Below are positions 7,466 to 40,858 of a DNA stretch of 64,000 nucleotides, piece by piece. The stretch spans positions 310,001-374,000 of the forward strand of contig NZ_JAINRD010000005.1 of NCBI RefSeq assembly GCF_020400605.1, written 5' to 3'. The position numbers were made by a program, and so were the translations under genes. The notes below the pieces were generated by a model. The model saw nothing but the letters and a program-made list of their open reading frames with translations, was not told the origin of the DNA and made no database searches. Each line of letters starts with the position of its first letter. The stretch's first letter is position 1. The DNA is from Streptomyces aculeolatus (GTDB taxonomy: Bacteria > Actinomycetota > Actinomycetes > Streptomycetales > Streptomycetaceae).

Positions 7466-8517
7466 CCGACCGCCCGACCGCGAGCACGATCACCGACGAC
7501 GAGTTGGACGCCCTGTACGCCCGCCTCGATCTGCTGGAGCGGCGCGACTGCGGCGCCAGACCTGACGGCTTCGTGGTGTTCGACACCTACGTGCCGGGCC
7601 TCGCCGCCATCACCGAGCGGCCGGTTCTGCGGCAGTCACCGCAGAGTGCCGCAGCCGCCCCACGCCCCGATGCCCCGGGAACCATGCCAGGCGCCCGCGA
7701 GAGCGCCGAACACCCCCTCTCGGGCGTGGAGCAGCGCCCGGGGGGTGAGATAGGCGCTCACGCGGGCGCTGAGGGCGTCGACCCTCCCGCCGCCCCCTGC
7801 ACCGCCACGAACACCCGGCCATGGGGCAACGGCCCCACCATCAACTGCACCCTCCCCGCCAACCACTACGACGAGGACAACGAGCCCACCTTCAACGAGG
7901 ACGGCACCACGATCACCCCCGGCGGCTGGCACCACGGCCTCATGGACGGCCTCGACCTGCGGTGGTGCGACCGCGCCGAAGGAGCCACACCCCACACCCC
8001 GGCGCAGCCCGCCCCCGACCAGTCGGAATGCTCCGACCCTGCCCACAACTTCTTCGGACGGTGCAACGCGCCCGAGAAGCACGCCCCGCCCGCCGGCGCG
8101 CTGCGCGACACGATCGCCGAGGCCGTCCACGCCACGTCGGTGTGCGAGGTCGGCGACCCGGTCCGCTGCGGTGGCGGCTGCCGGGACGCTGCCGACGCCG
8201 TGCTGCCGGTCGTACAGGCCGAACTCGCCCGCGTCCCCGACCTCCACGCCGACACCGAGCGCCGGCTGCGCGCCGACCTCGCCGCCGAGGTGCGGAAGCG
8301 GGAGGAGGCGGAGACCACCGCCCGCACCCTCGGCGGCCTCTACGAGAGCGCGGAGGCCACCGTGACCCGCGTCCACGAGTACGTGCAGAACCTCGACCAG
8401 ATGGCCGAATCCACCGCCAGTGCCGACGACCGGCGGTTGTACCGCGCGCTCGCCGCCGACCTGCGGAAACGGCTCGGCTACGACACCAACGACGTCCCGA
8501 AGGAGCCCACCCCGTGA
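7462..8517 (+). CDS. Hypothetical protein with C-terminal coiled coil
   Basis: 351 residues from GTG. The N-terminal 40 residues are helical, the middle is Pro/Gly-rich and contains a conserved-looking block (GPTINCTLPANHY...GGWHHG), and residues about 230-330 are long charged helices (ERRLRADLAAEVRKREEAET). It also has scattered Cys/His pairs. Actinophages often carry such a modular protein among early genes; no function can be assigned. Confidence 0.65.
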   Translation: MTDRPTASTITDDELDALYARLDLLERRDCGARPDGFVVFDTYVPGLAAITERPVLRQSPQSAAAAPRPDAPGTMPGARESAEHPLSGVEQRPGGEIGAHAGAEGVDPPAAPCTATNTRPWGNGPTINCTLPANHYDEDNEPTFNEDGTTITPGGWHHGLMDGLDLRWCDRAEGATPHTPAQPAPDQSECSDPAHNFFGRCNAPEKHAPPAGALRDTIAEAVHATSVCEVGDPVRCGGGCRDAADAVLPVVQAELARVPDLHADTERRLRADLAAEVRKREEAETTARTLGGLYESAEATVTRVHEYVQNLDQMAESTASADDRRLYRALAADLRKRLGYDTNDVPKEPTP

Positions 8518-27574: not shown

Positions 27575-29002
27575 GTGGAGCGGACCGACCTGCAGTGGCT
27601 CACCCACCTGATCGACTGCCACGACACGGAGAAGCGGGAGCTGAAGCTCCTCGACTCGTACTACGAGGGCGAGCAGCCGCTGTCGTACATGGCGCCGGAG
27701 TTGCTGGCGGAGATGGACGACCGCGTTCGCCAGGTGGTGGTGAACTGGCCGCAGTTGGTGGCCGACTCGATCGAGGAGCGCCTCGATGTGGAGGGCTTCC
27801 GCTTCCCGGGCGAGCCGGCGGCGGATGAGGATCTGTGGCGGATCTGGCAGGCGAACAACCTGGATGAGCAGTCCCAGCAGGGACATCTCGACGCGCTGGT
27901 CATGCGCCGGTCGTATGTGGTCATCGGCACCGGCGACGAGGACGACATTCCGCTGATCACGGTGGAGTCCGCGTTGGACATGTTCGCCGAGCACGACCCG
28001 CGGACGCGTCGGCTGGCGGCGGCGGTGAAGCGGTGGCGCGAGGAGCAGCCGGATGGCTCTCCGGTGGACTTCGCGACGCTGTACCGGCCGGATGCCACGT
28101 CGTGGTGGGTGAAGGGCTCGGACGGGGTATGGGCCGAGTACGAGCGGGATGAGCACGATCTCGGCGAGGTCCCGGTGGTGGTGCTCGCGAACCGGACCCG
28201 GCTGAAGCGCCTGGGCGGCGTCAGCGAGTTCAAGGCGGTCATTCCGCTGTCCGATGCCGCATGCAAGATCGCCACGGACATGATGGTCAGCGCCGAGTAT
28301 CACGCGACTCCGCGGCGGGTGGCGTTCGGGTTCGGCGAGGAAGACTTCGTCGACGAGCAGGGCCGCAAGGTCTCGGCGTTCAGCCGGATCATCGGCCGCA
28401 TGTGGGCGACGGAGAAGAACCGCAAGGAAGACGGCGCGGACGTCGTCCAGTTCCCCGAGGCGTCGCTCAGCAACTTCCACGACACGATCAACCAACTCGC
28501 GAGGCTCGTCGCGTCGCTCGCCGGCCTGCCGCCGCACTTCCTCGGCTACGCCACGGAAAACCCCACGTCGGCGGACGCGATCCGCTCCTCCGAGGCCCGG
28601 CTCGTGAAGCGCGCCGAGCGTAAGCAGCGGGCATGGGGCGAGGCGTGGGAGCAGGTGATGAGGATCGCGATCCGCGTCCGCGATAGGGCGTGGAACCCGG
28701 AGGCGCGGGCGCTGGAGACGATCTGGCGCGACGCATCCACCCCGACGGTCGGCATGAAGGCCGATGCCGCGGTCAAGCTCCACACCGCGAAGATCGTGCC
28801 GCTGCGGCAGACCCGCGAGGACATGGGCTACACGCAGGTGCAGATCGCCCGTATGGAGGAGCAGGACGAGCAGGCCGCACAGGACGCTCTGACGCGCATC
28901 GCCGGTGGCGACGTGGCCGCCATGTTCGGGCCCAAGTCGGCCGACGATCCTGACGGCGACGCCGAGCGGGAGCCGGAGGCGGCCGGTGCCGCCGCGGGAT
29001 GA
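27575..29002 (+). CDS. Portal protein (SPP1 gp6-like)
   Basis: 475 residues from GTG. Features of the family: an N-terminal YYEGEQPLSYM, RRSYVVIGTGDEDD, a wing domain, and ASLAGLPPHFLGYATENPTS followed by long helices (ADAIRSSEARLVKRAERKQR). Forms the dodecameric vertex through which DNA passes. Length is normal for the family. Overlaps the MuF gene start by 17 bases. Confidence 0.9.
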   Translation: MERTDLQWLTHLIDCHDTEKRELKLLDSYYEGEQPLSYMAPELLAEMDDRVRQVVVNWPQLVADSIEERLDVEGFRFPGEPAADEDLWRIWQANNLDEQSQQGHLDALVMRRSYVVIGTGDEDDIPLITVESALDMFAEHDPRTRRLAAAVKRWREEQPDGSPVDFATLYRPDATSWWVKGSDGVWAEYERDEHDLGEVPVVVLANRTRLKRLGGVSEFKAVIPLSDAACKIATDMMVSAEYHATPRRVAFGFGEEDFVDEQGRKVSAFSRIIGRMWATEKNRKEDGADVVQFPEASLSNFHDTINQLARLVASLAGLPPHFLGYATENPTSADAIRSSEARLVKRAERKQRAWGEAWEQVMRIAIRVRDRAWNPEARALETIWRDASTPTVGMKADAAVKLHTAKIVPLRQTREDMGYTQVQIARMEEQDEQAAQDALTRIAGGDVAAMFGPKSADDPDGDAEREPEAAGAAAG

Positions 29003-29993
29003 AGCGGATGCCGTCGCGGTTGCCCGCTACCGGCAGATCCAGGCGGTGTCCAGGCAGGTTGTCACCGAGGTGCAGGGCATCTGGGCAGGCCTTCCGGCGC
29101 ACCGCATCGAAGCGGAACTCGCCGGGGAGGCTGGCGCGCGGATCGTCGCCGCGGTGGTCGCAGGACAGTTGAGCGTGGCGCAGGGCGCGCAGGCGTTCCT
29201 GGCCGCGATCCTCGCCGCTCAGGGCGTGGCCGCAGCGCCGGTCGGCGCGGTGGCTGCCGCCGCGTTCGCGGGCGTCGCCTCCGACGGTCGCCCGCTGGAG
29301 ACGCTGCTGTTCCTACCGGCGCTGGCGGTGACGCAGGCGCTGGCCGCGGGCCTGTCGCCAGCGGATGCGATGCTGCGGGGCCTCGCAACGTTGGCCCGCT
29401 ACGCGGGTACGCAGATCGCCGACGCGGGCCGCGGCGCGGATCAGGTGGCGATGGTCGCCGAGCGCCGCGTGGTGATGTACACGCGCGTCGTGCAACTCCC
29501 GGCCTGCGCCCGCTGCATCATCCTCGCGGGCCAGACGTACAGCTACTCGAAGGGCTTCCGCCGGCATCCGATGTGCGACTGCACGATCAGGCCACTCACC
29601 GAGCGCGAGTACGACGCCGCCGCGTCGCCGCGGGAACTCTTCCAGCAGATGAGCGCGGCGGAGCAGCGCCGCCGCTTCGGCGAGGCGGGGGCCCGGGCGA
29701 TCCGCGAGGGCGCCGACATGGGGCAGATCGTCAACGCCCGCCGCGGCATGAGCACCGCAGGTGCCACCACTTCGGAGGGCACCACTCGCCGCGGCTGGTA
29801 CGCCCACACCGCCCGCCGCGCCGGCTCCGAGTTTGACCGGTCGCCCGGCACGCGCTTCGGGCAAGCCACCTCGACCCGCTACGGCCGCACGACGACACCG
29901 CGGCTGATGCCCGAGGAGATCTACCGCCAAGCCGGCGGCGACCGCGACGCCGCACTGCGGCTGCTGCGCCGCAACGGCTACCTCGACCAGTAA
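28986..29993 (+). CDS. MuF-like minor head protein
   Basis: 335 residues from GTG inside the portal gene's end. The signature is in the middle: QLPACARCIILAGQTYSYSK and FRRHPMCDCTIRP, the Cys-rich core of MuF-type head morphogenesis proteins. C terminus is Gly/Arg/Thr-rich. Located between portal and scaffold as expected. Confidence 0.8.
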   Translation: MPPRDEADAVAVARYRQIQAVSRQVVTEVQGIWAGLPAHRIEAELAGEAGARIVAAVVAGQLSVAQGAQAFLAAILAAQGVAAAPVGAVAAAAFAGVASDGRPLETLLFLPALAVTQALAAGLSPADAMLRGLATLARYAGTQIADAGRGADQVAMVAERRVVMYTRVVQLPACARCIILAGQTYSYSKGFRRHPMCDCTIRPLTEREYDAAASPRELFQQMSAAEQRRRFGEAGARAIREGADMGQIVNARRGMSTAGATTSEGTTRRGWYAHTARRAGSEFDRSPGTRFGQATSTRYGRTTTPRLMPEEIYRQAGGDRDAALRLLRRNGYLDQ

Positions 29994-30050: not shown

Positions 30051-30743
30051 ATGCACCTGACCGCCTGCCGGACGACTGCCGCCCACGGCGCAGCCTGGTT
30101 CCGGCTCAACCGCCACGACGACCCCGAACCGGCTGACCCGCCCGAGGCCGACCCTGGGCCCGACGAGCCCGAGCCGGCCGACCCGGAGCCCGAATCCGAC
30201 CCGGAGGGCGCCGACGCGCTCGGTGACGCCGGGAAGAAGGCCCTGGACCGGATGAAGGCCGAGCGGGCGGCAGCCCGGCGGGAGGCCGCTGCCGCGAAGA
30301 AGGCCGCCGCGGAGGCCCAGCGCAAAGTCGACGAGTACGAGAACCTCAACAAGACGGAGCTGGAGAAGGCCACCAGCCGCGCCGAGGCGGCCGAGAAGCG
30401 CGCCACGGCCGCGGTGCAGCAGGCAGTGAAGGCCGAAGTGAAGGCCCTCGCCGCCAGGGAGTTCGCGGACCCCACCGACGCCGACCTCCTGGGCGACCTG
30501 TCGCGCTACGTCGGCGACGACGGCAACGTCGACACCGAGCAGATCGCCGCGGACCTTGACGGCCTGCTGGAACGCAAGCCGCACCTGCGCAAGCAGGCAC
30601 CCGCCCCGGAGAAGCCGAAGGCGCCCCGACCGGACCCGTCGCAGGGGGCCCGGCCCGAGACGCCGCCGACCGACTACAGCAACGCCCCCCGCGACGAGCT
30701 GGCGAAGAAGCTCGGCGAGTACGGCGTGCGCCTCCGCGCGTGA
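30051..30743 (+). CDS. Scaffolding protein
   Basis: 230 residues, ATG with GGGAG upstream. Acidic Pro-Glu-Asp-rich segment (30-65), then a long coiled coil (AERAAARREAAAAKKAAAEA... to about 145) and a basic C terminus, the standard scaffold layout. Near the N terminus residues 16-23 read WFRLNRHD, matching the capsid protein's WFRLDRHD; this may be a processing site for the Prp-like protease encoded next. Confidence 0.85.
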   Translation: MHLTACRTTAAHGAAWFRLNRHDDPEPADPPEADPGPDEPEPADPEPESDPEGADALGDAGKKALDRMKAERAAARREAAAAKKAAAEAQRKVDEYENLNKTELEKATSRAEAAEKRATAAVQQAVKAEVKALAAREFADPTDADLLGDLSRYVGDDGNVDTEQIAADLDGLLERKPHLRKQAPAPEKPKAPRPDPSQGARPETPPTDYSNAPRDELAKKLGEYGVRLRA

Positions 30744-30928
30744 TCCACGTCCGGGCCCGACTGGGCGCCGGGCGAACCTCAATCGAGGTGACCGGTCACG
30801 AGGAGCACACCGAGCAGGGGCGGGTCTGCGCCGCGGTGTCGGCCATCACCCAAACCGCGCTGCTGGGCCTGGAGCAGGTCGCGCAGCATCACCCGGACCT
30901 CGTGTCCATCGAGATCACTCAGGAGTAG
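30740..30928 (+). CDS. prp: Prp-like cysteine protease, candidate prohead maturation protease
   Basis: 62 residues from GTG overlapping the scaffold stop. GHEEHTEQG-RVCAAVSAITQTALLGL carries the Prp catalytic pair, His20 and Cys30, with the family's CAAVSA motif; shorter than Firmicute Prp (about 105 residues) and with two fewer residues between His and Cys. Prp trims ribosomal protein L27 in Firmicutes and, in staphylococcal phage 80alpha, processes capsid and scaffold at an L27-like motif. It sits between scaffold and capsid genes whose N termini share WFRL[ND]RHD. Confidence 0.75.
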   Translation: MIHVRARLGAGRTSIEVTGHEEHTEQGRVCAAVSAITQTALLGLEQVAQHHPDLVSIEITQE

Positions 30929-30930
30929 AG

Positions 30931-32259
30931 ATGACCGTACAGACGGCTGCCAAGCCGTGGTTCCGGCTCGACCGCCACGATGTGCGGTCCACCCTGCCGG
31001 CGTCGATCCGCGCCATCATGCAGAACGGGCTGCTCGACGGCATGTTCCGCCAGTCCCTCGCGCCGGAGCTGCTGTTCCCGCAGGTCGCCGACGTCGAGCC
31101 GTGGCAGGGCGCCAAGGGCGACACGAAGATCATGACCCGGAACGGGCTCATGACGCCCGACCCGACGCCGACCACCGGCTCCGACGCGAGCACCGGCACG
31201 TACTCCATCGAGCAGTGGACCGTGACGATGGACCAGTACGGCAAGTCCATTGACACCGACCTGCTGGTGTCCTCGATGACGCAGGCGTCGAAGTACCTCA
31301 ACGACGTCAGCCGGCTGGCGATCCAGGCCGGGCAGACCCTCAACCTGCTCGCCCGCAACAAGCTGTACGCGGCCTACGCGGGCGGCCGGACGTGGGCTTC
31401 GTCCGCGGGCACCTCGGACACGTCGCTTGAGGTCGCCTCCGTGGACGGCTTCACGCACGTCCTGGTCAACGGCGTGCCGACGGCAGTGTCCGCGTCGACC
31501 CCGCTGAACGTCACCGTCGACGGCGTCGCCAACACGGTCACCGGCGTGAACACCTCCACGCGGGTGCTCACCCTGGGCACGGCGCGCGTCGATGTCGCCG
31601 GCGACGCCGTGGTCTCCAGCCAGGCGCCGTATGCGGTGCGGGCGGGCTCGTCGAACGACACGGCGTTCGACCTCGGCGCCGGCGACCTGATCAAGTTCTC
31701 CCACTTCCGGGCCGCGGTCGCCCGGCTGCGGCGCATGCACGTGCCGCCGGCGGAGGGCTCCAACTACATCGCCCACATCGACTCCGTCACCGAGAGCCAG
31801 CTCTTCGAGGACACCGAGTTCCAGAACCTCTACCGCGGGCGCGCGGAGTCGGAGACCTACCGCAACCTGGCGCTCGGCGTGTTCGGCGGCATCGTGTGGG
31901 TCCGCAATGAGGTCGTGCCGTACCTCACCTCGGCGGCCACCGGGTACGAGGATCTGACGGCGACGGTGCACCGGCCGCTGGTGATGGGCGCGGGCGCCCT
32001 GATCGCGGCGCCGTTCGAGAACCCGGCCGGCCTGCTGTCGGAGACCGGAGTGCAGGACGTCCCCGACATCTCAATGATCAACGTGGCGCCGGGTGTGGAC
32101 GTCGCGCGGATCGTCCGCCCGCCGCAGGACCGCTACCAGCAGAACGTCGCCACGACCTGGTCGTGGGTCGGCGACTACGGCGTGCCGTCCGACTCGCTCG
32201 CGAACGGCGACCCGGCGCAGTTCAAGCGCGCCGTGGTGCTGGAGCACTCGGCGAACTGA
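30931..32259 (+). CDS. Major capsid protein
   Basis: 442 residues, ATG with AGGAG upstream. N-terminal arm includes WFRLDRHD (10-17), then an HK97-like body (RQSLAPELLFPQVADVEPW...MDQYGKSIDTDLLVSSMTQA...). Residues about 165-235 (VDGFTHVLVNGVPTAVSAST...VTGVNTSTRVLTLG) form a beta-rich insertion. C-terminal GAGALIAAPFENPAGLLSET, then RAVVLEHSAN. Position after scaffold and Prp, and size, fit the major capsid subunit. Confidence 0.85.
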   Translation: MTVQTAAKPWFRLDRHDVRSTLPASIRAIMQNGLLDGMFRQSLAPELLFPQVADVEPWQGAKGDTKIMTRNGLMTPDPTPTTGSDASTGTYSIEQWTVTMDQYGKSIDTDLLVSSMTQASKYLNDVSRLAIQAGQTLNLLARNKLYAAYAGGRTWASSAGTSDTSLEVASVDGFTHVLVNGVPTAVSASTPLNVTVDGVANTVTGVNTSTRVLTLGTARVDVAGDAVVSSQAPYAVRAGSSNDTAFDLGAGDLIKFSHFRAAVARLRRMHVPPAEGSNYIAHIDSVTESQLFEDTEFQNLYRGRAESETYRNLALGVFGGIVWVRNEVVPYLTSAATGYEDLTATVHRPLVMGAGALIAAPFENPAGLLSETGVQDVPDISMINVAPGVDVARIVRPPQDRYQQNVATTWSWVGDYGVPSDSLANGDPAQFKRAVVLEHSAN

Positions 32260-36127: not shown

Positions 36128-39100
36128 GTGGCCGGTCCCGGTGGTGTCCTCGTCGGACGCGGATACGTCAGCATCCGTCCGGAGTTTCAGGGCGACTGGT
36201 CGCGGCAGGCGTCCTCACGGGCATCGTCCGCCGGCCGCAACGCTGGCGCCGGGTTCACGAAGGCGTTCTCGGTCGGCCTGAAAGGGATCGGCGCGCTGGC
36301 CGGGGTGGCGGTTGGAGCCAACCTGTCCAGCGCCGCGGGCGCCGCCGCCGCCCTGGCCCCGGCGCTGGCGACCGCGGGCACCGCCGCGGGCGCCCTGAAG
36401 ATTGGCCTCAGCGGGGTGGGCGAGGCGTTCAAGGCCGCGTTCGCCGACTCCTCCGCGGACGCGCAGGCCGCCGCGAGCGCGACCCGCGCGGTGGAGTCGG
36501 CGCAGCGGTCCCTCGCCGACGCTCAGCGCGGTGTCGCGGACGCGCGAGTGCAGGCCGCAGAGCGCATCAAGGACGCGCAGCGCGCCGTCGCCGACGCCGA
36601 GCGGAGCCTCACCCGCACCATCGAGGACGCCGCCCGGCGGCAGAAGGACGCGCAGCAGCAGGTACGGGACGCCGTCCGCGACCTCCGTGACGCCCAGACC
36701 GACGCCCGCGACGCACAGAAGGACCTGACAGAGGCGCGACGCGACGCCACCCGCGCGCTGCAGGACATGAACCAGCGGCTCGGCGAGTCGCGGCTCGACG
36801 AGCGCGAGGCCGTCCTCCGGCTGAAAGAGGCCGAGGAGGAACTGAAGAAGGCCCAGGCCAAGCCGGGCACCGACCCGGACGCCCTGGAGCGCCTTCAGAT
36901 CGCCCACGAGCGGGCGAAGCTCAACCTCGCAGAGCAGCGCCGGGAGACGAACAGGCTGGAGAAGGACACGGCCCGCGCCAACAAGGCGGGGGTGTCCGGC
37001 TCGGAGCAGGTGGCCCGCGCGCAGGAGCGCATCTCCGACGCGCAGCGCGGTGTCGCGGACCGGGAGCGGGCGGTCGCCGAGGCGCGGGATGACGCCCGCC
37101 GTGCGGCCGTCGACGGTGCCCGGGACGTCGCCGACGCGCAGCGGTCTCTCGCGGACGCCGAGCGTGGTGTGGCGCAGGCCCGCGCGGACGGGCAGCGGCA
37201 GGTCGAGGACGCCCAGCGGGCGGTCGCCGACGCGGCCCGCGCGCTCGCGGACGCGCAGGCCGCTGCTGCGGCGCAGACGTCGGCGCTCGGCGAGGCGATG
37301 AGCAAGCTCGCGCCCAACGCGAAGGCGTTCGTGGGCGCCGTCGTCGGGCTGAAGCCCGCGTGGGACGGCCTGAGGCTGCCGGTGCAGAACCGCCTGTTCG
37401 CCGGGCTCGACACGACGGTCACGTCCCTGGCTCGCACCACCCTCCCGATCCTCGGGCAGCGGCTCACCGACACCGCGGGCATCTGGAACTCGATCGCGAA
37501 GTCCGCGGCCGACGCCATCACCGAGATGGCCAAGTCCGGGGCGCTGGACCGCGTACTCGCCGGCGCGAACCGCGGCTTCGCGCGGCTGGAGTCGGTCCCC
37601 GCCGACCTGATCAGTGCGTTCGCGACGCTGGCGCAGGCCGCGCAGCCCGCCTTCAACAAGCTGCTCGGGCAGTTCGCTGGCGCCGTGTCGTCGTTCACCG
37701 ACGGGCTCGCGAAAGGCTTCGCGTCCGGTGGTCTACAGGACGCGATCAACGCCGCCTTCGCCGTCATCTCCCAGCTCGGCACGCTCGTCGCGAACGTCGC
37801 CGGGGCGTTCGGCCAGTTGTTCAAGGCCGCGGCAGATGCGGGCGGCGAGATCGTCGGCGTGCTCGGCAGCGTCTTCGGCGAGCTGAAGAAGATCCTGTCC
37901 GCGCCCGAAATCCAGGCGCAGCTACGGACCTTGTTCGGGGCGGTCGCGCAGATCGTCGGCGCGATCCTCCCCGTCGTCGGCGCCGTGGTCCGCGCGATCG
38001 TGCCGCTGCTCGCGGCCATCGCCCCGGCCATCGCGTCGATCGCGAAGGCCCTGGGTCCGGTGCTGTCGCAGCTCGCGACCGCCCTGGGCGCGGCTCTGCT
38101 GCCGATCGTCCGCGCGCTGATGCCGGTGGTCGAGCAGGTCGGCCTCGCCCTGGTGCAGGTCGTCGCTGCGATCACCCCGCTGTTGCAGCCGATCGCGCAG
38201 TTGATCACCGCGATCATCCGTGCCCTGGCGCCGGCTATCCGGCCGCTGCTCGACGTCATCGTCTCGATCGTCGGGGCGCTCGTCGGCCCGCTGACGACGG
38301 TCATCCGTGCGCTGATCCCCGCCGTCCGGCTCATCGGCCGCATCATCGCCCAGGTCTTCACCGCGCTGGAGCCTGTGCTGCGCCCGCTCGTGCGCCTCCT
38401 CGGCACGGTCGCCGGGCTGCTGGCGAACGCCTTCGCCGCCGGGGTGCGCGCGGTGCTGTCCGTGATCCGCCCGCTGATCCCCGTCGGGGTCGAGCTGGTG
38501 CGCACGGTCATCGCAGCGCTGGCGCCGATCCTGCCGCTCGTCGCCAACGCGATCACCACCATGGCGCGCGGCCTGGCCGGGCTGCTGCCGACGATCGTCG
38601 GGGTCGTTAAGGAGTTGGTCGGCGAGTTCGTGCCGATCCTCAACGACCTGATGCCGATCCTCGTGGACATCGCGAGGACGATCATCCGCGGCCTGGTCAA
38701 GGTGCTGCCCGCACTGGTCGACTCCTTCCTGCTGCTCGTGCGCCTCGCGCTGCGCCCGCTGCTGCCGCTGATCGGGCAGATCGCCCAGATCATGGTGAAG
38801 TTCAGCGGCGACCTGTGGCGCGCGCTGCTGCCCGCGCTCGGGGAACTGGTGAAGGCGGTCATCGACCTCCTGGTGGCCCTGCTGCCGATCCTGCCGCCGC
38901 TGATCAAGCTCATCGCCCTCGGGCTGCGGCTCGGGGTCGCCATCACGTCGAAGATCCTGCCGCCGCTCCTGAGGCTCGCGACGTTCATGATCACGTTCGC
39001 GGTGAAGGTCGTCGCGAAGGTCATCACGTGGCTGTCGCGGCTGACGGTGTGGCTGCGCAAGCATGTCGGCGGCGCCTTCAAGTGGCTGTACGAGAAGGTA

Positions 39101-40858
39101 GTGCGGCCGGTGTGGCGCGGCATCCGCAGCGCCATCAGTACCGCATGGGACGCGATCCGCAAGGTGTTCAGCGCCATGCAGGACCGCATCCGCGGTCCGT
39201 TCGCCGGCGCCTGGCGGTGGCTGCGCGACAAGGTCATCGGGCCGGTGTGGAACTGGATCAGTTCGAAGATCAGCCGCGTCTGGCGCGACGGCATCCGGCC
39301 CGCGTTCGACTCGATCAGGCGGGCCGTGGGCCGGGTTGGCGACGCCTTCCGCGACGCGAAGGACGCGATCGGCAAGGCCTGGGACAAGATCCGCGGGCTG
39401 ACGAAGAAGCCCATCAACTGGGTCTTGAGGGTGGTCTGGAACGACGGCATCGTCAAAGTCTGGAAGAAGATCGCCGGGTGGATCCCGGGGGTGCCGGACC
39501 TGAAGAAGTTGCCGCTGCTCGCGAAGGGCGGGACGGTCCCGGCGGGGCCCGGCATCTTCAACAGACCCACGGCGATCGTCGGCGAGGGCAACCCGCGGCA
39601 CCCGGAATTCGTCATTCCGACCGATCCGAAGTACCGGTCGCGGGCGCTGAATCTGTGGAACGCCGCGGGCGGTCAGCTCATGGAATCTGGCGGCATCATC
39701 GGCGACCTGGGCCGCCTCGTCGGCATCGGAACCAGCGGAACGTCGCGCGCCGCGAAGTTCATGTCGGACCCCGTCGGCAACTTGGGCAAGCTGCTCGACC
39801 CGCTCCTCAGGCCGCTCCGAAAGATGGACGACACGGCGTGGGGCGCGATGGTCGCGGGCCTTCCGCGGATGATCGTCGAAGGGCTGAAGGGCATAGTCGC
39901 CGGGGCCGGCGGCGGTGAGCGAGTCAGCGCGGCGCTGCGGTTCGCGCGGGCGCAGGTCGGCAAGCCGTACCTGTGGGGCGGCGTCGGCCCCAGCGGCTTC
40001 GACTGCACCGGCATCCTCTCGGCGATCCAGAACGTGATCCAGGGCCGCAACCCGTATCAGCGGGTCTTCTCGACGCACTCCTTCGCGGGCGGCAACGCCC
40101 CCGACGGGTGGGTTCGCGGCCTCCGGGCCCCGTACATGATCGGCATCACGCATGCCGGTGTCGGGCACGCGGGCGGCACGCTCAACGGCGTCAACGTCGA
40201 GTCCGCAGGCGGTGTGGGCGTGCGCATGGGCAAGAGCGCGCGCGGCGCGTTCAACCCGATGTTCTCCTCCTGGTACGGCTTCCGCCCGTCCATCGCTGCG
40301 AGCGCCACCGGGAAGTCCCCGGCTGCGGCGAAGGCTGCCGCGCGGGAGATGCTGGGCCGGTGGGGCTGGGGACAGAACCAATGGCCCTCCCTGGAACGGC
40401 TGTGGACCCGCGAATCCGGATGGCGCTGGAACGCCGACAACCCCACGTCCGACGCCTACGGCATCCCGCAGGCGCTCCCCGGCTCGAAGATGGCCAGCGC
40501 CGGCAAGGACTGGCGCACCAACCCCGTCACCCAGATCAGGTGGGGCCTCGGGTACATCAAGGGCCGCTACGGCAGCCCGGCCGGCGCCATGTCGTTCTGG
40601 AACCGGCACAACTGGTACGACAGCGGCGGTTACCTCGAGCCGGGTCTGACTATGGCGTACAACGGCACCGGCTCCCCGGAGGCGGTGCTTACCCCGCGGC
40701 AGACCGCCGCCCTGGAGGACGGCGTGCTCGCCGCGATGGGCGACCGGCCGAACGTCACCTACCAGATCAACGCCCGCACCGCGGACTTCAAGGTGCGGGA
40801 CCTGGACCGGGTGACGCGGCAGAAGGAGACGGAGCTGCGCGTGGGGAGGGCAGGCTAG
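36128..40858 (+). CDS. Tape measure protein with NlpC/P60-like and lytic transglycosylase domains
   Basis: 1576 residues from GTG; determines tail length. Residues about 110-390 are a long coiled coil with ADA(Q/R)R repeats; about 580-1000 are hydrophobic helices rich in Pro/Leu/Val (membrane-active). Residues about 1275-1370 form an NlpC/P60-like peptidase with Cys1293 (GFDCTG) and candidate His1342 and His1347 (HAGVGHAGG). Residues about 1405-1505 are an SLT-type transglycosylase with Glu1429 (RLWTRESGWRW) and AYGIPQALPGSKM. The wall hydrolases would open peptidoglycan for DNA entry. Confidence 0.9.
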   Translation: MAGPGGVLVGRGYVSIRPEFQGDWSRQASSRASSAGRNAGAGFTKAFSVGLKGIGALAGVAVGANLSSAAGAAAALAPALATAGTAAGALKIGLSGVGEAFKAAFADSSADAQAAASATRAVESAQRSLADAQRGVADARVQAAERIKDAQRAVADAERSLTRTIEDAARRQKDAQQQVRDAVRDLRDAQTDARDAQKDLTEARRDATRALQDMNQRLGESRLDEREAVLRLKEAEEELKKAQAKPGTDPDALERLQIAHERAKLNLAEQRRETNRLEKDTARANKAGVSGSEQVARAQERISDAQRGVADRERAVAEARDDARRAAVDGARDVADAQRSLADAERGVAQARADGQRQVEDAQRAVADAARALADAQAAAAAQTSALGEAMSKLAPNAKAFVGAVVGLKPAWDGLRLPVQNRLFAGLDTTVTSLARTTLPILGQRLTDTAGIWNSIAKSAADAITEMAKSGALDRVLAGANRGFARLESVPADLISAFATLAQAAQPAFNKLLGQFAGAVSSFTDGLAKGFASGGLQDAINAAFAVISQLGTLVANVAGAFGQLFKAAADAGGEIVGVLGSVFGELKKILSAPEIQAQLRTLFGAVAQIVGAILPVVGAVVRAIVPLLAAIAPAIASIAKALGPVLSQLATALGAALLPIVRALMPVVEQVGLALVQVVAAITPLLQPIAQLITAIIRALAPAIRPLLDVIVSIVGALVGPLTTVIRALIPAVRLIGRIIAQVFTALEPVLRPLVRLLGTVAGLLANAFAAGVRAVLSVIRPLIPVGVELVRTVIAALAPILPLVANAITTMARGLAGLLPTIVGVVKELVGEFVPILNDLMPILVDIARTIIRGLVKVLPALVDSFLLLVRLALRPLLPLIGQIAQIMVKFSGDLWRALLPALGELVKAVIDLLVALLPILPPLIKLIALGLRLGVAITSKILPPLLRLATFMITFAVKVVAKVITWLSRLTVWLRKHVGGAFKWLYEKVVRPVWRGIRSAISTAWDAIRKVFSAMQDRIRGPFAGAWRWLRDKVIGPVWNWISSKISRVWRDGIRPAFDSIRRAVGRVGDAFRDAKDAIGKAWDKIRGLTKKPINWVLRVVWNDGIVKVWKKIAGWIPGVPDLKKLPLLAKGGTVPAGPGIFNRPTAIVGEGNPRHPEFVIPTDPKYRSRALNLWNAAGGQLMESGGIIGDLGRLVGIGTSGTSRAAKFMSDPVGNLGKLLDPLLRPLRKMDDTAWGAMVAGLPRMIVEGLKGIVAGAGGGERVSAALRFARAQVGKPYLWGGVGPSGFDCTGILSAIQNVIQGRNPYQRVFSTHSFAGGNAPDGWVRGLRAPYMIGITHAGVGHAGGTLNGVNVESAGGVGVRMGKSARGAFNPMFSSWYGFRPSIAASATGKSPAAAKAAAREMLGRWGWGQNQWPSLERLWTRESGWRWNADNPTSDAYGIPQALPGSKMASAGKDWRTNPVTQIRWGLGYIKGRYGSPAGAMSFWNRHNWYDSGGYLEPGLTMAYNGTGSPEAVLTPRQTAALEDGVLAAMGDRPNVTYQINARTADFKVRDLDRVTRQKETELRVGRAG

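Follow-up and report, generated by a model that had tools for sequence, protein, structure and literature searches.

A putative half-size Prp protease encoded between scaffold and capsid genes with a common N-terminal tag in a Streptomyces prophage

What a 62-residue relative of the cysteine protease Prp might do between the scaffold and capsid genes of a phage, when the products of both neighbours carry nearly the same octapeptide close to their N termini, is the question raised by this prophage of Streptomyces aculeolatus. (The window referred to below is the whole stretch of DNA analysed, 64,000 nucleotides long.) The head operon, on the + strand, runs from the large terminase through an SPP1-type portal, a MuF-like minor head protein (28905-29993 as the listed ORF, the real start possibly lying later; PF25310 VG15, 27.7 bits) and a 230-residue head scaffolding protein (30051-30743; phrog_4708, E 1.8e-24) to the 62-residue ORF (30740-30928), whose GTG start overlaps the scaffold stop codon, and the 442-residue major capsid protein (30931-32259; phrog_1357 major head protein, E 1.4e-23). 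This capsid is 81.2% identical to the major capsid protein of Streptomyces phage Kromp (MH744420), in which gp5-gp6-gp7 are the same genes in the same order with both tags; Kromp gp6 is annotated 'protease' by its depositors, and the displayed feature rows name no cleavage site or tag.

The octapeptides are WFRLNRHD at scaffold residues 16-23 (30096-30119, + strand) and WFRLDRHD at capsid residues 10-17 (30958-30981, + strand), exactly where an initial annotation of this DNA had placed them. Its statement that the two proteins are otherwise unrelated also holds, BLASTP being convincing for the 8-mer alone (E 0.003; next alignment E 0.83). When all six frames of the window are scanned with a capsid-tag profile, the two sites score 27.5 and 27.9 and the next best 11.9; a third tag of this actinophage type was not found in that scan. 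On comparative grounds the 62-residue protein is probably (at a probability of about 0.8) a shortened, phage-encoded relative of Prp that is dedicated to virion assembly and cuts both tags after His. It would recognise W-F-x-L-x-R-[H/F] close to where scaffold and capsid start, most likely with His as P1, Leu as P4 and Phe as P6, which places the predicted cuts after scaffold His22 (between 30116 and 30117) and capsid His16 (between 30978 and 30979). Cleavage at these bonds would remove 22 scaffold and 16 capsid residues, and the mature capsid would begin D17-V-R-S.

The assignment of the small protein rests on its match to PF04327 (Peptidase_Prp; 35.9 bits against a cut-off of 27, over profile positions 1-57 of 90), which bears out the initial description of a Prp-like ORF with His20 and Cys30 in coordinates and residues alike. 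(Two deep relatives, L062 and L064, fall below the cut-off with 22.9 and 25.4 bits.) Prp of Staphylococcus aureus (SaPrp; MEROPS C108) processes ribosomal protein L27 and the capsid and scaffold of phage 80alpha (PMC9405229, PMC5744158), and the window protein is homologous to it, with the G-H...C and Ser/Thr positions in place. All 47 aligned relatives have Gly19, His20 and Cys30, and the loop separating His from Cys differs in length among them, as would be expected for a catalytic pair. (Alignments were used here because a second GH in some members distorts His-Cys spacing counts of the short set; the partial ORFs of L055, frame-broken, and L128, cut, were excluded from the enzyme sets.) The position of SaPrp Ser38 is Ser34 in the window protein, and Ser (70) or Thr (14) among 84 short Prps.

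In two respects the protein departs from SaPrp. It has 62 residues as against 106 (4peo), and the Asp three residues ahead of the Cys, Asp31 of SaPrp, is absent, its place being taken by Gly. Both features are general: 86 of 87 short Prps have 61-68 residues, compared with 91-123 for 40 full-length Prps (the 89-residue ORF of L233, which overlaps the capsid start, was trimmed at 57 for comparison), and the Asp31 position is Gly in 81, Pro in three, Ser in two and Asp in one (L245) of the 87, versus Asp in 39 of the 40. In SaPrp, Asp31 makes a bond to the substrate's P3 Gln and is required for activity, D31A being inactive (PMC9405229); the residue is not universal even among full-length enzymes, since 59 full-length phage Prps include 13 with Asn and three with Ser.

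The short Prps are about half the size of the full-length proteins and lack one beta-beta-alpha unit: strands one and two, the loop and the helix bearing the Cys are retained, and a last strand-like segment follows directly. Compared by eye, GLEQVAQHHPDLVSIEI of the short Prp resembles GIKAIEDQYPEHVNLEI near the end of the L137 Prp. AF2 models the window enzyme with a mean pLDDT of 95.3 and strands at 3-9 and 12-18, a helix at 28-50, and residues 51-62 without assigned structure, possibly because the last strand pairs in an oligomer. A Foldseek search of the PDB with the 62-residue protein gave nothing at E<=0.001, all rows being at chance level; VIA re-alignment ranked first a Prp chain, 2g0j (SMU.848, S. 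mutans), at a weak Z of 4.5 and an rmsd of 2.4 over 55 residues, and the next at Z 3.1. Because neither the full fold nor the Asp before the Cys was found, the protein is not filed as a canonical C108 Prp. In full-length Prp, substrate residues L4 and L6 are placed at a dimer interface (PMC9405229). The short enzyme is predicted to be catalytically active and to act as an oligomer. A fuller reading, to which we give slightly less than even odds, is that an active stand-alone Prp of ~62 residues, missing one beta-beta-alpha unit and the loop Asp and completed by oligomerization, has had its site re-specified (P3 Gln gone, Arg-His at P2-P1) on transfer of the system into actinobacteria that have no Prp or long L27. 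It is the half-size enzyme that would be the unusual part, the pathway itself resembling that of 80alpha. If active, the 62-residue enzyme could rank among the smallest proteases.

Relatives fetched by the capsid and by the 62-residue protein came, after removal of duplicates, to 101 distinct loci, of which 95, with both Prp and scaffold visible, were counted. (Left out were L057, L116 and L128, in which the scaffold was not found, L065 and L066, whose contigs start at or near the capsid, and L145, a weak and spurious capsid match.) The tag, anchored on R-H, is present in 95 of 95 capsids just ahead of the conserved core, with W in 87, F in 91, L at P4 in 88 and R-H in 95 (this last being the anchor, with no capsid found without it); the residue that follows R-H is D in 59, A in 34 and M and N in one each. 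Many loci are near-identical, so that these counts are not independent. The length of the capsid prefix is variable, 15-42 residues as measured, roughly, from the furthest upstream Met at 94 of the 95 loci. With a profile built from capsid tags alone and 19,000 shuffles, a scaffold site exceeds the 99% shuffle level in 89 of 95 loci and the 99.9% level in 85; of the six misses, L021 and L026 begin inside the gene, L121 is out of frame, and L062, L002 and L058 have diverged. Sequenced genomes that were scanned yielded 16 actinomycete short-Prp loci, with the same capsid adjoining in 16/16 and the tag in 16/16 capsids and 15 scaffolds (L251 is cut upstream). The same-genus loci L140 and L141 share tags and Prp with the Streptomyces records L250 and L256. 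Tandem tag copies (WFRLDRHD, WFDLGRHD) occur within one capsid in L007, L008 and L140.

The initial annotation had called this a new cleavage motif. Its relation to the classical Prp site was examined by sliding one against the other: the two match in the register that makes His P1 (capsid +2.0, scaffold +3.5), and the other six registers are all negative, at -4.9 or lower, a test that leans on a tag pattern in which P1 must be Phe and P4 aliphatic. In the fitted register P1 is His, P4 Leu, P6 Phe and P1' Asp or Ala; four scaffolds, and a weaker site in L002, have Phe as P1. In the SaPrp complex P1 is aromatic, P4 and P6 are both Leu, and P1' is small (PMC9405229). This fit in a single register indicates that WFxLxRH is a diverged Prp site, with the predicted cut RH↓D (the arrow marks predicted cuts throughout), and the claim of novelty falls. 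Like 80alpha, the actinophages have an N-terminal tag common to scaffold and capsid, with hydrophobic P6 and P4 and an aromatic-type P1; their tag differs from that of 80alpha in that P3 Gln is replaced by variable residues and P2 Phe by Arg, P1 is His in most, and P1' is Asp or Ala.

The classical site is itself widespread in phages that encode a full-length Prp. These were collected by searching viral contigs with a profile (the best 80 of 158 loci, with L290 and L137), in which 59 loci were classed as full-length, 10 were counted as short, among them L326 with a 73-residue ORF and a full-length-type loop, and five stayed unclassified. A classical LxLQxF↓A/D tag stands on at least two genes at 45 of the 59 full-length loci; by this pattern seven have no tag and seven have one. 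(The DLQMY↓A of L304 and L305 falls outside the search pattern.) Among 80 control loci, 77 had no classical tag, three had one and none had two or more, and the minus strands of those 59 full-length loci gave none in 51 and one in eight. A bridging tag, YFDLQ[IV]F↓D, is seen in L290, a Lachnospiraceae prophage in which a full-length Prp is followed by a scaffold beginning MKKRYFDLQIF↓DDGG and a capsid beginning MRKRYFDLQVF↓DTPA. L137 has the same design with an NLQLF↓AD tag, a PF03864 capsid and a Gp46-type scaffold. (In single-query searches the L137 Prp matched itself alone, as did the L064 capsid.) The actinophage locus is thus like such loci (L137, L290, L342) in having a Prp near scaffold and capsid, a common N-terminal tag and a self-contained arrangement, and differs in that theirs are full-length enzymes with NLQLF↓A or FDLQIF↓D tags. 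The proposal that this phage has a self-contained maturation system therefore stands as to a Prp-type enzyme that the phage encodes alongside the tagged scaffold and capsid, which comparison supports strongly; as the 45 loci attest, the arrangement is not unique to this phage.

In L311, one of the full-length-Prp loci, the tail tube protein (7579-8109; PF06199) bears the same N-terminal tag, which may mean that tails too are Prp-tagged. A third tagged gene lies ~2.4-2.7 kb past the capsid tag in L303, L308, L309, L320, L342, L343, L345, L351, L352, L358 and L361, the L342 copy having no Pfam family match. The Enterococcus phage record Efs 1-1-1 (L149, OR846610.1) appears to contain a bacterial L21-prp-L27 segment rather than a head operon and may be host chromosome.

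Capsid homologues that lack the enzyme provide the complementary view. The capsid of Komagataeibacter phage phiKX1 is a 30.6% relative, and its annotation has no Prp gene. In the best 80 of 114 phiKX1-type relatives, a profile made from the Prps gathered here (E<=0.01) found Prp at none, eight of these contigs having less than 600 bases, and 20 less than 2 kb, upstream of the capsid, where an upstream gene would be out of view. At 79 of the 80 loci the capsid start codon (78 ATG, one GTG) falls in the column of the predicted P1' residue, L230 having no start codon there; the aligned starts read M-x-I-x-N-F-P in the phiKX1 type versus D-V-R-S-T-L-P in the tagged capsids. (The column was matched to capsids of the RHDVRSTLP type; those of the RHAGVR type are longer by one or two residues.) Among upstream scaffold-like genes one of 62 reached the 95% shuffle score for the tag, these genes, from 62 of the 80 loci, having been picked by composition and some of them looking out of frame. 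Prp, tag and prefix thus appear to come or go jointly. The survey of relatives for co-variation of protease and motif that had been proposed as a check shows co-occurrence here, in what is essentially one evolutionary split between capsids ~30% identical.

Paired changes are seen within the enzyme-bearing groups. P3 Gln is found in none of 95 capsids and one of 89 scaffolds at short-Prp loci, versus 52 of 61 distinct tags at full-length loci, and the joint loss of Asp31 and of the P3 Gln suggests co-adaptation. The link is not strict and carries less weight because the 16 full-length Prps with Asn or Ser keep P3 Gln. Trp at P7 agrees in presence between capsid and scaffold at 86 of 91 loci, and a subgroup of full-length loci whose enzymes have a long loop, with Asn instead of Asp31 (L331, L337, L338, L341-L343, L345, L346, L351, L358, L360, L361, L366), has Asp at P1' in 13 of 13 loci and all 34 tags, versus seven of 39 other tagged loci, both counts being uncorrected for kinship; the latter may represent a second co-variation of enzyme and substrate, subject to the same correction. 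In the deep clade of short Prps the enzyme loops are altered (GHADPSVC, GHAEPSVC, GHADPSAC, GHSRDVAC), and in three of the four loci with both tags seen (L232, L233, L245) both tags end R-H-P, those of L245 being LVRGVLLRH↓PEK and QVRSVLLRH↓PVR and the L232 and L233 pairs similar; the fourth, L062, has R-H↓Q and R-H↓A instead, kinship again being uncorrected. Pro directly after R-H would be an awkward P1' and, with the absent Asp and the viability of uncleavable 80alpha mutants, is a serious reservation about the predicted cleavage.

Tags so alike might have arisen by recent duplication or gene conversion of DNA, with no common function, and the 23 bases at 30096-30118 and 30958-30980 do differ at one position, as had been claimed, being the sole two matches in the window at <=3 mismatches (none in 100 shuffles). 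This match in DNA adds no evidence to that of the peptides, since amino-acid identity and codon bias predict as much. At 89 loci with a scaffold site scoring >10, the same codon is used in 289 of 430 same-residue, non-Trp codon pairs against 285.4 expected (window codon usage having been applied to every locus), and in the window pair alone in five of six against 3.78 expected. Nucleotide identity of the tags spans 13-23 of 24 among the 89 loci while the peptide is kept. It is therefore the peptide that is maintained; the codon test rules out a DNA repeat or gene conversion as the source of the identity, and a duplication empty of function has next to nothing left to recommend it. The common peptide could nevertheless be an assembly or folding signal of scaffold and capsid, bound by a Prp-like protein that acts as chaperone or coordinator and cleaves little or nothing. 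The N-terminal sequence of the 80alpha scaffold is required and its cleavage is not, for which the authors suggest a common chaperone association (PMC5744158); the short enzyme does lack the Asp that is essential in SaPrp, and at three deep-clade loci R-H is followed by Pro. Such a role would not account for His20 and Cys30 being invariant in 47 relatives despite a loop of variable length, for Ser or Thr at the Ser38 position in 84 of 84, or for the lack of a prefix in 79 of 80 homologues that have no Prp, and we regard it as unlikely.

Less likely still is that the tag is cut by another protease, the MuF-like protein or one of the host. The MuF-like protein also tracks the tag, with a match at 87 of 95 Prp-positive loci and at none of 80 without Prp (60 of the latter with at least 2 kb upstream in view), and it matches phrog_1522, labelled head maturation protease, over positions 16-346 of 591; its homologue Kromp gp4 (L001:3494-4510) is annotated capsid maturation protease. 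The MuF-like protein of the window contains no Pfam peptidase family at E up to 1 and does match VG15, for which reasons the label on Kromp gp4 may be wrong. In L134, Prp occurs together with the two tags, the stretch from portal to scaffold contains no MuF-like gene, and a MuF match is absent from the whole locus (the other seven of the eight loci without a match are undecisive, six being short contigs and L061 having a MuF-like ORF by eye), and tags of the same pattern accompany Prp beside other capsid families (PF03864, PF05065). The MuF-like protein is weakened as sole cutter, and cleavage of both tags by the short Prp remains the preferred reading. (L061 also has, at 1376-2209 between its MuF-like ORF and the scaffold, a cysteine-rich ORF that looks HNH-like by eye and is possibly a homing endonuclease.)

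The setting of the short Prp in its host differs from that of SaPrp, in that the enzyme is phage-encoded, the host has no other Prp and its L27 has no extension. The genome contains no second Prp besides the prophage copy, and its L27 begins MAHKKG without an extension for Prp to remove, an in-frame stop lying two codons upstream; in a sample of the phylum, PF04327 was found in two of 396 genomes, this one and another with a weak match below the cut-off that contains an internal stop. The enzyme thus has no L27 job in this host. If the predicted cleavage occurs, head maturation would be independent of the host. Staphylococcal Prp is essential to its host, which hampers tests there; with a phage-owned enzyme and a host L27 that has no site, mutations in the enzyme or the tags should leave the ribosome unaffected. 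Taken together, the enzymes and their tags would offer a natural specificity switch, from LQxF↓A to xRH↓D. Cleavage may be dispensable, since 80alpha remains viable when its capsid or scaffold is mutated so that it cannot be cut (PMC5744158); the same paper describes the function of this processing of phage proteins by Prp as unclear. Neither a phage-encoded short Prp nor this tag figures among the top-ranked literature matches listed, and an earlier mention is possible. Elsewhere in the window, the tape measure protein (36128-40858) appears by eye to have NlpC/P60 and transglycosylase-like segments towards its C-terminal end.
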